31,185 nucleotides of DNA, taken from positions 1 to 31,185 of IMG/VR virus record IMGVR_UViG_3300011113_000475; one strand, written 5' to 3'. Within the stretch, counting starts at the first letter, position 1, and each line of letters starts with the position of its first letter. The stretch is from a virus. A program made the translations under genes and the position numbers. Shown in pieces: positions 16,069 through 31,185 of the stretch. The notes beneath the pieces are model-generated. The model worked only from the letters and a program-made list of their open reading frames with translations, was not told the DNA's origin and ran no database searches.

Positions 16069-16385
16069 CTCACGCCCGCACCGAGCAACTGCGCTGCGCG
16101 GAACAATTTGCGGACCCCGGCGCACGCTTGGGACTGCATGACTGGTTCGCAGAGGAATATCTGATGGAGGAAGAGATGAGGAAAACGAAACCGCCGCTGA
16201 CCTTGGAGCAGCAGCGGGCATTGGTAGGCACGCGGCGCACGGCCACGCTGGCTGCGCTGTCGCTGATTCACCCGGCGTCGACGCCGAAGGACCTGCACGA
16301 GCGGATCCGGGCAGCGGAGGTGGAGTGCGGGTTGTGGGTGGATGCGGTGGAGAGGCTGAGGAAGATGGAGGCGAAGAATGATTGA
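16047..16385 (+). CDS. helical protein, 112 aa, unknown
   Basis: The start is set at the ATG at 16047, inside the end of the membrane protein gene; a later start at 16164 is possible. The product is mostly helical ([20 protein letters not shown], then [20 protein letters not shown] and [20 protein letters not shown]). It overlaps the next start by eight bases. No domain was recognised. Confidence 0.45.
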
Positions 16386-16953
16386 GATTAAAAACACAAA
16401 CGGCGTTGTCCTTCGGACGGTGGACGCCGATACGCTACGCGAGGCGGACTTGTCCGGGGCGGACATGTCCTGGGCGAAACTGAGCGGGGCGGACTTGTCC
16501 GGGGCGGACTTGTCCGGGGCGAAACTGAGCGGGGCGGACTTGTCCGGGGCGGACTTGTCCGGGGCGAAACTGATCGAGGCGGACTTGTCCGGGGCGGACA
16601 TGTCCTGGGCGAAACTGAGCGGGGCGGACTTGTCCGGGGCGGACTTGTCCGGGGCGAAACTGAGCGGGGCGGACTTGTCCGGGGCGGACTTGTCCGGGGC
16701 GAAACTGAGCGGTGCGAAACTCGCTGCGAAGCAGTACATCTGCCAGATCCACGCCAGCCGCCACGCCATCGTAGCGATCGACGACGATGTGCGGATCGGA
16801 TGTGAGCGGAAGCCACTGGCCAAATGGCTGGAGACGTTTGATGCCGTGGGGCGGGAGAACAAATACTCAGAGGCCGAAATCGCTGAGTACGGGGGCTGGC
16901 TCAGGCAGATTGCGGCGGTGCTGGCAGCGCGGCGGGGGGAGGTGGCCGGATGA
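16378..16953 (+). CDS. pentapeptide-repeat protein with C-terminal domain
   Basis: The 191-aa product has an N-terminal lead ([20 protein letters not shown]), then about 20 pentapeptides of the A(D/K)LSG type (residues 22-117), which should fold into a right-handed quadrilateral beta helix. A 70-residue C-terminal domain follows ([20 protein letters not shown] and later [16 protein letters not shown]). DNA-mimic pentapeptide proteins such as Qnr and MfpA bind gyrase, but this helix is short and no specific target is visible. The repeats are nearly identical at DNA level, so length may vary between relatives. It lies in the coupled series and its ATG overlaps the previous stop. Confidence 0.8.
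16441..16710 (+). repeat. hierarchical 15/45/135-bp coding repeat
   Basis: The pentapeptide region is made of 15-bp units such as GGGGCGGACTTGTCC. They group as D-D-K triplets of 45 bp. Two whole 135-bp blocks, 16441-16575 and 16576-16710, differ at a single base (T at 16574, G at 16709). The near identity implies very recent tandem duplication. Confidence 0.9.
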
Positions 16954-18328: not shown

Positions 18329-18495
18329 CAGTCGAGGAACAGTGGAACCTGATTGCCGCATTCGTCGAGCCTGAGCATCGAAGAGTGGCGCAGGCCGCGT
18401 ACTTCGCCGGATACGCAGCGGCGTTAGGCGATCAGGATCGGTTTGAGGAGGCTCGGGCGGTAAGGGATCAGTTACTGGAGATTAAATGTGGCTGA
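18325..18495 (+). CDS. small helical protein, 56 aa
   Basis: The start at 18325 overlaps the TGT-like stop (ATGA). MTVEEQWNLIAAFVEPEHRR and AAYFAGYAAALGDQDRFEEA form two helices in a tetratricopeptide-like hairpin. Its last codons overlap the start of the methyltransferase locus, so it is translationally coupled to it. Function unknown. Confidence 0.5.
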   Translation: MTVEEQWNLIAAFVEPEHRRVAQAAYFAGYAAALGDQDRFEEARAVRDQLLEIKCG

Positions 18496-19655
18496 GAATA
18501 CCTACGACAATACCTACATCTCACTCTTCTCCGGCTACGGAGGACTCGACCTCGCCGTCCGATGCGCTTTGCCAGAGGCTCGCTGCATCTGTTTCGTGGA
18601 GAGGGAAGCTCCTGCGGCCGCAATCCTGGCGGCTCGCATGGAGGACGGAGGGCTGGAGGAATCGCCTATCTGGTCTGACATTACCACCTTCCCAAGCAAA
18701 CTCTTCCGTGGCCGCGTGGCTGGACTCGTTGGTGGGTTTCCCTGCCAGGACCTCAGCGTTGCAGGGCGACAGGCCGGAATCGAGGGAGAGCGGAGCGGAC
18801 TGTTTTTTGAGATCGTTCGACTCGTTCGCGAGCTGGAGTCCGTCGAGTGGCTGTTTCTTGAGAACGTCCCGCCAGTTCTCAATTTTCCAGCAGGAACAAC
18901 CCTTCTTGGAGAGCTTGCCAAAATCGGGTTCGATGCGGAATGGGGAACTTTACGAGCGTCCGATGTTGGCGGATCGCACCGGCGAGAGCGGGCGTTTGTG
19001 TTGGCCTACCGCAGTGGTTACCGATTGCAATGGAGCGCGGAACAAGACGAGCGGCAGGTCTATGGCGTCGCAGCATCACAGCGGAACGACATTGAACGAT
19101 GCGATTATCAACTGGCCTTCCCCTCGCTCCGAGGACTCGGAAAGCTGTGGGAATCATCCGGGGGCGGTGGATTCGTTGACGGGGGCGGCGCGGATGTGGC
19201 CCAACTACCAAAAGCCGCTGCCTTATTTCCGGCCAAAGCCCGTCTATCAAACGCGCCTACCCAACGAGACATCGAGCGAATACTGGGAACGCATGACGGA
19301 TTACGAGACCGAGAACGGCATCAACCCGGCGGAGGGCGGGATGCACTGTCCTACGCCAGCCGCCCGCGATTACCGGAGCCCGAATGCTGCGAGCCACATG
19401 GATCGCTCGACGGGGGCGAAGCATCTGGATCAACTTCCGAATTTCATCGAGCACTGTTTCCTCCCGGACCCGCCGACCTCGACGCATGGCGGCAAGTCCC
19501 TGTGTGGCTCCACCCGGCGGTTGAACCCGGACTTCGTCGACTGGCTGATGGGACTGCCGCCAGGATGGACCGACTACGCGCCGCTGGAAACGGCGTCGTA
19601 CCTCTCCAAGGTGCGGTCGCTCTTGCGCTCCTTCTTGGGAGGGCACGCTAAATGA
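18486..19655 (+). CDS. overlapping long frame inside methyltransferase locus
   Basis: This 389-codon frame is open across the whole methyltransferase gene, one frame away, starting at ATG 18486 (two bases before the GTG of the other frame) and ending four bases after it. The first 120 residues look like a by-product, rich in Ser, Arg and Leu. The rest reads as a real protein: LPKSGSMRNGELYERPML, three repeats of the type W/C-P-T/S-x-x-x-x-D (CWPTAVVTD, NWPSPRSED, HCPTPAARD), a Tyr/Asn-rich middle, and STRRLNPDFVDWLMGLPPGW. The last motif is one I know from phage methyltransferase-associated proteins. Third-position GC, judged by eye, favours this frame in the 3' half. Dual coding, or a frameshift fusion, is inferred. 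Confidence 0.5.
   Translation: MWLRIPTTIPTSHSSPATEDSTSPSDALCQRLAASVSWRGKLLRPQSWRLAWRTEGWRNRLSGLTLPPSQANSSVAAWLDSLVGFPARTSALQGDRPESRESGADCFLRSFDSFASWSPSSGCFLRTSRQFSIFQQEQPFLESLPKSGSMRNGELYERPMLADRTGESGRLCWPTAVVTDCNGARNKTSGRSMASQHHSGTTLNDAIINWPSPRSEDSESCGNHPGAVDSLTGAARMWPNYQKPLPYFRPKPVYQTRLPNETSSEYWERMTDYETENGINPAEGGMHCPTPAARDYRSPNAASHMDRSTGAKHLDQLPNFIEHCFLPDPPTSTHGGKSLCGSTRRLNPDFVDWLMGLPPGWTDYAPLETASYLSKVRSLLRSFLGGHAK
18488..19651 (+). CDS. DNA cytosine-5 methyltransferase (Dcm-like)
   Basis: The 387-aa product transfers methyl from S-adenosylmethionine to cytosine C5. Motifs: I, ISLFSGYGGLDLA (11-23); IV, GGFPCQDLSVAG with catalytic C86; VI, FLENV with E125; VIII, RASDVGGSHRRERAFVLA (156-173). 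The C-terminus carries motif X-like RLADGTAARMDRLRAAGNGV, then VPLQGAVALALLL. The region from about residue 178 to 340, the target recognition part, is Gly-rich and odd, which is where the overlapping frame looks better. The GTG start overlaps the ATG of that frame; GGAG lies upstream. It could protect phage DNA from restriction or alter host sites. Neighbours are Lar-like and TGT-like genes. Confidence 0.85.
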   Translation: MAENTYDNTYISLFSGYGGLDLAVRCALPEARCICFVEREAPAAAILAARMEDGGLEESPIWSDITTFPSKLFRGRVAGLVGGFPCQDLSVAGRQAGIEGERSGLFFEIVRLVRELESVEWLFLENVPPVLNFPAGTTLLGELAKIGFDAEWGTLRASDVGGSHRRERAFVLAYRSGYRLQWSAEQDERQVYGVAASQRNDIERCDYQLAFPSLRGLGKLWESSGGGGFVDGGGADVAQLPKAAALFPAKARLSNAPTQRDIERILGTHDGLRDRERHQPGGGRDALSYASRPRLPEPECCEPHGSLDGGEASGSTSEFHRALFPPGPADLDAWRQVPVWLHPAVEPGLRRLADGTAARMDRLRAAGNGVVPLQGAVALALLLGRAR

Positions 19656-27279: not shown

Positions 27280-27331
27280 CCCGCGGCTCTCGCGCAGCGG
27301 GGCCAACAACACCACCCCACCCCCAAGGAGA
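27280..27331 (+). ncRNA. hammerhead remnant plus AC-rich leader
   Basis: CCCGC (27280-27284) and GCGGG (27297-27301) match the two stem I halves of the decayed hammerhead at 28426-28475, and the 47 bases 27285-27331 match 28459-28505 at 45 positions. The catalytic core (CUGANGA, stem II, GAAA) is missing, so this copy cannot cleave. The AC-rich part ends in the AAGGAG ribosome site of the next gene. Confidence 0.45.
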
Positions 27332-27336
27332 CCACC

Positions 27337-27576
27337 ATGAGACTGCCACCGAAGAAGGCCCAGGACATCGCCGAGGTCATCGAGCACCTCGCCAAGCACG
27401 AGACGATTTACTACCAGGGGCCGATGGATCACAGGCCTTGGCGTTGCCAAGTGATTCGGTTCCTGGTGAATCGCCTGCACCCTGAGCGCTCCAAGGTCAC
27501 GATCGAATGCGACGGGATCCGGTTCCACGACCTGGGCCTGATCGATCACCTCGACCGATTCTGGCTGCACCAGTAA
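27337..27576 (+). CDS. unknown protein, 79 aa
   Basis: The start is the ATG at 27337, six bases after AAGGAGA. MRLPPKKAQDIAEVIEHLAK is helical, followed by ETIYYQGPMDHRPWRCQVIR and FHDLGLIDHLDRFWLH. The mix of basic and aromatic residues would suit nucleic-acid or protein binding. A hammerhead ribozyme begins eight bases after the stop. Confidence 0.55.
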   Translation: MRLPPKKAQDIAEVIEHLAKHETIYYQGPMDHRPWRCQVIRFLVNRLHPERSKVTIECDGIRFHDLGLIDHLDRFWLHQ

Positions 27577-27583
27577 CCCGCCC

Positions 27584-27642
27584 CGCCCTGATGAGGCCCG
27601 GGGGCTCCGGGCCGAAACGGCACCCCCACCGTGCCGTAGGCG
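27584..27642 (+). ncRNA. hammerhead ribozyme 1
   Basis: All core elements are present in order. Stem I is CGCC (27584-27587) with GGCG (27639-27642). CUGAUGA is at 27588-27594. Stem II is GGCCCGG (27595-27601) with CCGGGCC (27607-27613), loop GGGCU. GAA is at 27614-27616. Stem III is ACGGCAC (27617-27623) with GUGCCGU (27631-27637), so A15.1 pairs with U16.1. The cleavage nucleotide is A27638 (GUA motif), and cleavage would fall between 27638 and 27639. Stem I is open, so this is type I topology. Cleavage would separate the 27337 gene message from that of the TTG-started gene at 27694, leaving the latter a 55-nt 5' leader. Confidence 0.88.
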
Positions 27643-27693
27643 AGCAGCCCCGCGCACCAGCGCAGCACCACACCACCCCCAAGGAGAACGGCC

Positions 27694-28176: not shown

Positions 28177-28434
28177 ATGCGTTCCCCCATCAACCTGTAT
28201 TCGATTACGACCCTCGACGAGCCCAACGAGTGGGCTACCGAGACCCTTTGCGCGCCCGATTACGCAGGGCGCAGCGACGCCATCGTTGGCTTTGAGGCGG
28301 CGCTGGCTGCCGCGATCCGGTTGGCGGACCGCTACGAGGCCAGGGTTGCGATTCTGGGCGACCCGGGACCGGAGGATATCTCGGGCCGCCCCTGGGAATG
28401 CGCCAGCGTACTGCCGCCGGTGCCACCCGCCTGA
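28177..28434 (+). CDS. unknown protein, 85 aa
   Basis: The start at 28177 lies behind CGAGGAGA. MRSPINLYSITTLDEPNEWA is followed by a helix (SDAIVGFEAALAAAIRLADR) and a strand (EARVAILGDPG), ending proline-rich. The plan suggests a small alpha/beta fold. Its stop codon UGA is part of the CUGACGA of the decayed hammerhead. Confidence 0.5.
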   Translation: MRSPINLYSITTLDEPNEWATETLCAPDYAGRSDAIVGFEAALAAAIRLADRYEARVAILGDPGPEDISGRPWECASVLPPVPPA

Positions 28435-28475
28435 CGAGGGCCTCAACGCGCGCGCCATGGCGCTCGCGCAGCGGG
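28426..28475 (+). ncRNA. decayed hammerhead ribozyme
   Basis: Stem I (CCCGC at 28426-28430 with GCGGG at 28471-28475), CUGACGA (28431-28437) and a long stem III (about 28447-28468, loop AU) are kept, and A28470 sits where the cleavage base should be. However, the conserved GAAA is UCAA here, stem II is reduced, and position 16.1 is C69 rather than U, so activity is unlikely. The 47 bases at 28459-28505 are nearly identical to those at 27285-27331. Confidence 0.5.
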
Positions 28476-28510
28476 GCCGACAACACCACCCCACCCCCAA
28501 GGAGAACGAA

Positions 28511-28720: not shown

Positions 28721-28969
28721 ATGACAACCACGAAGCCCAAGTACGAACCGCCTTTTGAGCAGGCCGTCCGGAAGAAGGCCCGCGAAATCTACCACGAGGA
28801 AGGCACCCTCGAAATCGACGACGACGCCATCGTCTCGCAATCGGAGGGCGGCTGCTACGTTGCCGCCTGGGTCTGGGTGCCTGACGAAGACGAATCCGAC
28901 GCCGACGCCGAGACGCCCGAGACGACGAACGAATGGATGTGGACGCCGGACGCCAAAAAGACCGCCTGA
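28721..28969 (+). CDS. very acidic protein, 82 aa
   Basis: The ATG at 28721 follows CAAGGAGAC. The N-terminus is basic (MTTTKPKYEPPFEQAVRKKA), the middle has a strand-turn-strand unit (GGCYVAAWVWVPDEDESDAD) and the rest is highly acidic. DNA-mimic or inhibitor proteins can look like this, but it is also a general feature of small phage genes. The UGA stop is embedded in the CUGACGA core of hammerhead 2. Confidence 0.5.
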   Translation: MTTTKPKYEPPFEQAVRKKAREIYHEEGTLEIDDDAIVSQSEGGCYVAAWVWVPDEDESDADAETPETTNEWMWTPDAKKTA

Positions 28970-29009
28970 CGAGGCCCAGGCCGGGCCGAAACGCCGAGAG
29001 GCGTCGCGG
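28962..29009 (+). ncRNA. hammerhead ribozyme 2, overlaps stop codon
   Basis: The full core is present. Stem I is CCGC (28962-28965) with GCGG (29006-29009). CUGACGA is at 28966-28972; position 7 may be any base. Stem II is GGCCC (28973-28977) with GGGCC (28983-28987), loop AGGCC. GAA is at 28988-28990. Stem III is ACGCC (28991-28995) with GGCGU (29000-29004), loop GAGA. The cleavage base is C29005 (GUC). Cleavage would fall between 29005 and 29006. The stop codon of the 28721 gene (28967-28969) lies inside the core, so ribosomes reaching the end would compete with folding. Confidence 0.88.
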
Positions 29010-29038
29010 GGCCCCCCCCGAAGATTAAAATCCGATTA

Positions 29039-29066
29039 ACGCCGAACACCATGTGATTTTCGGCGT
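29039..29066. promoter_or_regulatory. 8-bp inverted repeat, possible operator
   Basis: ACGCCGAA (29039-29046) and TTCGGCGT (29059-29066) are exact inverse copies around a 12-base spacer containing CACCATGTG. The area is AT-richer, lies after hammerhead 2 and before the gene at 29118, and has possible promoter elements nearby. A second hairpin, CGGGCG/CGCCCG, lies at 29079-29096. They may be an operator and leader hairpin for the last transcription unit. Confidence 0.4.
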
Positions 29067-29117
29067 ATGCTGACAACACGGGCGTTTAGCCGCCCGAAAA
29101 AGATAGGAGATTAGGAT

Positions 29118-30683: not shown

Positions 30684-31185
30684 CCCTCCAAAGTGACGGC
30701 ATGAACAATGCAGAACTGAGAGCGTTTCTGACTGCCAGATCTGCCTGCCGAGACGCCATGGACTGGCTCAGCGACCGTGATTCGGATCAGATGTGGGCTG
30801 AATGCCAGCGCCCGGACTGGTTGCTCTGGTGGGCCGGGCAAACAGTCCCGCGTCGAGATCTGGTCCTCGCTGCCTGTGACTGCGTGGAAACGGCGCTGCA
30901 ATTTGTGCCTGCGGATGAGCACCGGCCACGGCTAGCGATTGAAACCGCTCGGCGATGGGCGAACGGAGAAGCAACGATTGAAGAGGTGGAGGCTGCTGCC
31001 CGCGCTGCTGCCGCTGCTGCCGCTGCTGCCCACGCTGCCCACGCTGCCCACGCTGCCTACGCTGCCCGCTCTGCTGCCGCTGCTGCCGCTGCTGCCCACG
31101 CTGACCACGCTGACCACGCTGCCCGCTCTGCTGCCGCTGCTGCCGCTGCTGCCCACGCTGCCCACGCTGACCACGCTGCCTACGC
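30680..31185 (+). CDS. alanine-repeat protein, 3' end cut by window edge
   Basis: The ATG at 30680 overlaps the preceding stop. The first 100 residues form a helical domain: NNAELRAFLTARSACRDAMD, WAECQRPDWLLWWAGQTVPR, then DEHRPRLAIETARRWANGEA and TIEEVEAAARAA. This 'dW..W......RP..AI..A..W..G.at..e...A' form is common in phage and bacterial proteins of unknown or predicted immunity role. From about residue 101 on it is almost only Ala with His, Tyr, Asp and Arg-Ser punctuation. No stop codon is reached before 31185, so the length is unknown. Confidence 0.65.
   Translation, partial: MTLQSDGMNNAELRAFLTARSACRDAMDWLSDRDSDQMWAECQRPDWLLWWAGQTVPRRDLVLAACDCVETALQFVPADEHRPRLAIETARRWANGEATIEEVEAAARAAAAAAAAAHAAHAAHAAYAARSAAAAAAAAHADHADHAARSAAAAAAAAHAAHADHAAY
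30985..31185 (+). repeat. GCTGCC-based tandem repeat in alanine region
   Basis: Units such as GCTGCCCAC, GCTGACCAC and GCTGCTGCC recur, and blocks of about 60 bp containing GCCCGCTCTGCTGCCGCTGC are repeated two to three times with small changes. The array runs off the end of the window. Confidence 0.75.

Follow-up and report, generated by a model that had tools for sequence, protein, structure and literature searches.

What is the role of a predicted hammerhead ribozyme whose catalytic core contains the stop codon of the gene in front of it? The case considered here lies in a virus record of IMG/VR (the window, analysed over its full 31,185 bases), which is the entire record, possibly itself a fragment, and encodes terminase, portal, primase and helicase genes. 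Hammerheads flank genes in prophages, and tandem phage arrays cleave in vitro, with a triple array from A. tumefaciens doing so in E. coli also (Perreault et al. 2011, PMC3088659). The biological role of the phage and bacterial hammerheads has been described as an open question (PMC6155905).

Elsewhere in the window two ORFs of ~390 aa, in different frames of the + strand, overlap over their whole length (18486-19655). Each resembles phage methyltransferases, the frame at 18488 matching Pfam DNA_methylase (E 1.7e-33) as well as phrog_363 and the frame at 18486 matching phrog_1008 (E 1.9e-25), and they may be a fully overlapping gene pair. A repeat protein with pentapeptide-repeat-like units is encoded at 16378-16953 (+), its repeats also giving long open reading frames in the opposite (-) direction, and short tandem GCTGCC-type repeats at 30980-31185 reach the end of the record.

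Two type I hammerheads with a predicted pseudoknot

The coordinates of all the elements are listed in Table 1. HHR2 is a complete type I hammerhead, recovered by descriptor and by covariance model at exactly the position where the first-pass annotation had placed it. It has the core CUGANGA...GAA, the A15.1-U16.1 pair (A28991-U29004) and an H17 that is not G (C29005). Stems I, II and III comprise 4, 5 and 5 bp respectively; stems II and III are closed by loops while stem I is open. The tertiary contact between loop II and the stem I region is present as a predicted pairing with the tail that follows stem I. In hammerheads the cut falls after position 17, and this rule applied to the HHR2 sequence gives the predicted cleavage site. 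The stop codon of the upstream gene had been noted as bases 2-4 of CUGACGA, and this is confirmed in the sequence. No IMG/VR relatives of the 82-aa protein encoded by that gene were found.

Table 1. Positions of the hammerheads and neighbouring elements within the window
Feature	Position	Strand	Evidence
HHR2, type I hammerhead ribozyme	28962-29009	+	descriptor; independent covariance model, E 4.1e-15; conservation in L250, L241 and L231
HHR2 stem I 5′, CCGC	28962-28965	+	sequence
HHR2 catalytic core CUGACGA, UGA stop within	28966-28972	+	sequence
HHR2 stem II 5′, GGCCC	28973-28977	+	sequence
HHR2 loop II, AGGCC	28978-28982	+	sequence
HHR2 stem II 3′, GGGCC	28983-28987	+	sequence
HHR2 GAA	28988-28990	+	sequence
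HHR2 stem III 5′, ACGCC	28991-28995	+	sequence
HHR2 stem III loop, GAGA	28996-28999	+	sequence
HHR2 stem III 3′, GGCGU	29000-29004	+	sequence
HHR2 C17	29005	+	sequence
HHR2 stem I 3′, GCGG	29006-29009	+	sequence
HHR2 predicted cleavage site, after C17, 36 nt 3′ of the stop codon	29005/29006	+	hammerhead rule
GGCC tail, predicted pseudoknot partner of HHR2 loop II GGCC (28979-28982)	29010-29013	+	
Upstream gene, 82 aa, stop UGA 28967-28969 in ribozyme core	28721-28969	+	ORF; phrog_6739, E 2.3e-5
HHR1, complete first hammerhead	27584-27642	+	descriptor; covariance model, E 4e-14; ortholog in L250
Stop UAA upstream of HHR1	27574-27576	+	
AGCCC tail, predicted pseudoknot partner of HHR1 loop II GGGCU (27602-27606)	27646-27650	+	
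Degenerate hammerhead-like remnant, core CUGACGA and stem I	28425-28476	+	covariance model, 11.7 bits, E 0.12
Separate conserved leader element with inverted repeats, before gene 29118	29016-29116	+	found elsewhere in L231 and L241

A descriptor search of the window gives exactly two matches, HHR1 and HHR2, against a mean of 0.01 in each dinucleotide-shuffled window; when stems II and III are both required to have at least 4 bp there are none in 100 shuffles. The covariance model was based upon 76 hammerheads from other phages, with the window excluded, and returns E-values of 4e-15 for HHR2 and 4e-14 for HHR1. A chance motif is ruled out by the shuffles taken together with these E-values. Neither copy matches Rfam at the gathering score, and nothing was reported at E<=5 within 27.2-29.2 kb. 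Eight loci with other perfect phage hammerheads also had no match at the gathering score, so this silence reflects a limit of the Rfam models and is uninformative; an Rfam match is not a defining feature of a type I hammerhead ribozyme.

With tertiary energy left out, a rival fold is predicted to be more stable than the isolated HHR2 hammerhead by 1.4 kcal/mol, and by 2.9 kcal/mol when the flanks are included, the latter being the median for phage hammerheads. MFE folding alone did not recover the hammerhead as the best fold.

The remnant at 28.4 kb consists of core and stem I without GAAA, and its UGA is the stop of the gene at 28177-28434. It may be a match by chance, and was not accepted as a third full hammerhead. 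The two copies and the remnant lie amongst small genes on one strand of a tailed-phage genome, as a gene-flanking array.

The stems of the two copies had been said to covary. This holds for stems I and III, where pairs 2-3 of stem I and one pair of stem III are changed on both sides with pairing kept; in stem II the first five pairs are identical. In 76 other phage hammerheads both-side changes occur in 13 of the 15 pairs. The percentage of pairing in this set is circular because the sequences were partly chosen for pairing, a problem that does not affect the variety of pair types.

The predicted contact of loop II is enriched across the set. Among the listed matches loop II and the 3′ tail can form at least four Watson-Crick pairs in 48 of 134 hammerheads, compared with 14 in shuffles (0 of 500 as high). 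Both copies in the window have the pairing with different sequences, GGGCU with AGCCC in HHR1 and GGCC with GGCC in HHR2. No enrichment is seen in the same set of hammerheads for a pseudoknot on the 5′ side of stem I.

Conservation and borders of the hammerhead blocks

Relatives of the upstream gene are present in three contigs (L250, L241 and L231) of one Acidobacteriaceae metagenome bin, which derive from relatives of the window phage. In all three the conserved HHR2 block starts with stem I and ends with the pseudoknot partner (28962-29013), and both flanks differ. Differences within the 48 nt of the ribozyme are confined to the loops and H17. The gene in L250 has a 17-codon in-frame indel, yet its stop is still the core UGA, and a diverged homologue in L231 also stops there. 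The L241 homologue stops 19 nt earlier, and its hammerhead is intact.

The homology between the window and L250 starts at 27581, the edge of HHR1, with a different gene upstream. A further contig, L155, has only 27581-27690 (HHR1 plus leader) in common with the window in this region, and homology around HHR2 is limited to 28961/2-29013. In the window HHR2 is joined directly to the leader element that precedes gene 29118, and this junction looks like a point of gene loss or exchange. The leader element has no match to the sigma-70 consensus. A DNA similarity search of the phage collection gave nothing for the region, and no hammerhead was found in 80 terminase-relative loci, most of which are short and lack this region. 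A repeated leader (ACACCACCCC...CCCAAGGAGA) stands before several small genes at 27285-27331, 27643-27690 and 28455-28502, and is common to the window, L155 and L250.

Stop codons are docked at hammerhead cores in the sampled loci

A pattern scan of viral contigs gave at least 120 stretches. This first scan contains at least about 126 distinct type I hammerheads, the window included, with frequent arrays of up to eight per locus. Another two scans, based on different stem II sequences, added at least 231 hammerheads in 160 loci. Stop offsets were taken from samples based upon three chosen stem II sequences, with the upstream gene selected by codon model and similar contexts removed; all the counts cover the matches listed, and the gene calls on metagenomic contigs are our own.

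Amongst the matches listed the upstream stop lies at -20 to +1 of the core in 76 of 116 non-redundant hammerheads in the first sample, and in 88 of 145 in the second. It is the core UGA itself in 19 and 15 of these hammerheads, and lies past the core UGA in 4 and 5 respectively. At control CTGANGA sites in the same loci that are not hammerheads, the stop falls at -20 to +1 in 45 of 560, 24 of them at +1. Docking at -20 to +1 is thus the rule in the sampled loci. Within the matches listed, 42 of the genes running into the motif end on the core UGA and 11 continue past it (one third expected), and the stop is no more than about 12 nt from the core in 171 of the 220 hammerheads with an upstream stop at -60 to +1. 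N7 is C more often where the gene stops at the core UGA (27/42 versus 62/155 of the matches listed, P = 0.008), a weak effect.

Intrinsic terminators from loci of this kind are placed differently, starting mostly 15-30 nt 3′ of the stop. Only 19% of terminators lie within 12 nt of the stop, compared with 82% of the hammerheads in the matches listed, 40% of which overlap it (Fisher P = 3e-27 for the difference in stop spacing). Compactness alone is therefore not an obvious cause of the docking, because terminators, which also depend upon folding, avoid the reach of the ribosome; compaction is still an option for a ribozyme that folds late.

The arrangement also occurs in a cultured phage. The covariance model finds three hammerheads in Caulobacter phage S2B (MN857473.1), a phage of a laboratory Caulobacter strain, on the minus strand at 43065-43135, 42486-42548 and 44965-45020 of the record. 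For two of them the core UGA is precisely where a deposited gene stops (gp062c and gp060c). In Salisaeta icosahedral phage 1 and Rhizobium phage RHEph01 the hammerheads lie 13-34 nt 3′ of annotated stops. Hammerhead-like motifs in Haloarcula tailed viruses (L495 1204 and L498 1204) precede the next annotated start by ~45 nt, a placement that differs from that of the stop-docked hammerheads.

Proposed processing of the message and its relation to translation

Our answer is that HHR2, a type I hammerhead docked on a stop codon, most probably cuts itself and thereby processes the polycistronic phage mRNA at a gene junction. After a cut at the predicted site the upstream message would retain its stop codon together with two hairpins and would end in a 2′,3′-cyclic phosphate, and the downstream RNA would have a clean 5′-OH leader. 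It counts against mRNA processing that a new leader element, not a short leader, comes after HHR2 in the window, so that the next gene may be transcribed separately; the more stable rival fold predicted for HHR2 also counts against it.

Since the gene ends where the 5′ strand of stem I and the core are placed, HHR2 should fold only when no ribosome occupies the last codons, and therefore cutting would compete with or follow the termination of translation. This competition is a physical expectation, not an established regulation. When its A site contains a stop codon, a ribosome reaches roughly 12 nt beyond it; one terminating at HHR2 would thus cover the 5′ strand of stem I, the core and the first part of stem II. 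Brief masking of HHR2 by the terminating ribosome is likely, by analogy with E. coli, in which ribosomes at a stop codon repress the folding of intrinsic terminators that begin a few bp downstream (PMC4824070).

The first-pass annotation had gone further, suggesting that self-cleavage could depend on translation, with the RNA cut when ribosomes are few and intact when they are many. As a selected function, this would mean that ribosomes terminating at the core UGA keep the ribozyme unfolded and the transcript whole, and that at low translation the cut separates the downstream gene. The geometry on which this was based has proved to be widespread, in both samples of listed matches and in the annotation of S2B. 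The short distances from stop to core, the closeness to the stop of hammerheads as against terminators (which have to fold ahead of ribosomes), the repression of nearby hairpins in E. coli (PMC4824070) and the retention of the core stop despite the indel in L250 all speak for such a switch. However, the argument for a functional role is one of geometry, and the form with UGA in the core accounts for only about 13% of the sampled hammerheads. At HHR1 the upstream stop is found at -14, and the earlier stop in L241 leaves the hammerhead intact. Zero spacing would also be expected from genome compaction if the ribozyme may fold late. Moreover, ribosome occupancy is transient and cleavage irreversible, so most transcripts could eventually be cut. 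Selection of the docking as a translation-controlled switch is possible, and the data do not require it; we consider the switch unlikely at HHR2, and equally doubtful the broader proposal that phage hammerheads form a widespread termination-coupled class in which self-cleavage would be a read-out of ribosome traffic and the translation load of the preceding gene would decide whether a junction is cut.

There is about an even chance that the ribozyme does no more than process mRNA, with phage genomes sparing space and the masking by ribosomes without consequence. The stems abut the stop codons with zero spacing and the downstream leaders are short too (median 39 nt in the matches listed), as simple compaction would have it, although terminators from such loci are packed differently. 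This reading overlaps with mRNA processing as we propose it, the sole difference being whether translation matters. The borders described above might also mark a shuffling cassette of hammerhead plus leader, in which conserved border DNA allows small genes to be exchanged and the cut insulates them in the manner of RiboJ. The homology that starts at the edge of HHR1 in L250, the segment shared with L155 and the narrow homology at HHR2 agree with this, as does the identity between copies at the same locus, which is at the level of chance ~8-10 nt upstream of the core and decays over ~25 nt downstream. The same borders could arise as a side effect of selection for the ribozyme itself, and we regard the cassette as a tentative and rather unlikely idea. 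Processing, compaction and the cassette are not mutually exclusive, and so our confidences in them overlap. Multi-copy arrays would also free segments with ligatable ends, from which circular or ligated RNAs might be formed; these were looked for by Perreault et al. and none detected (PMC3088659), no RNA ligase was found in the scanned subset of window proteins, and such products are very improbable.

The positional rule provides a concrete handle on the role of the hammerheads, in that the ribozymes occupy the zone of the terminating ribosome that terminators avoid, and it offers a prediction of whether and when they cut. The stop-docked arrangement was already present in the deposited annotation of the cultured phage S2B. 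In the open-access literature we found no earlier report of this stop-codon geometry, which may have been described elsewhere.

RiboJ is an engineered hammerhead insulator used in 5′ UTRs. Like HHR2 as proposed here, its cut creates a standard 5′ leader for the downstream gene, whereas HHR2 is natural, lies at the end of the upstream gene and occurs in an array. The ribosome-repressed terminators of E. coli resemble HHR2 in that a ribosome at the stop masks RNA structure just downstream; there it is termination that is affected, while in HHR2 the structure is a ribozyme and the masking is predicted (PMC4824070). The HDV-like theta ribozymes of gut phages are likewise a self-cleaving class in tailed-phage genomes, but they have a different fold and are tied to tRNA 3′ ends, and those not tied to tRNAs are mostly >200 nt from ORFs (PMC10879173). 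Closest are the prophage hammerheads, which have in common with HHR2 the core, the type I topology, a pseudoknot-type contact and copies flanking small phage genes. The text describing them makes no mention of stop codons (PMC3088659), whereas in HHR2 the UGA of the core is the stop codon of a gene.
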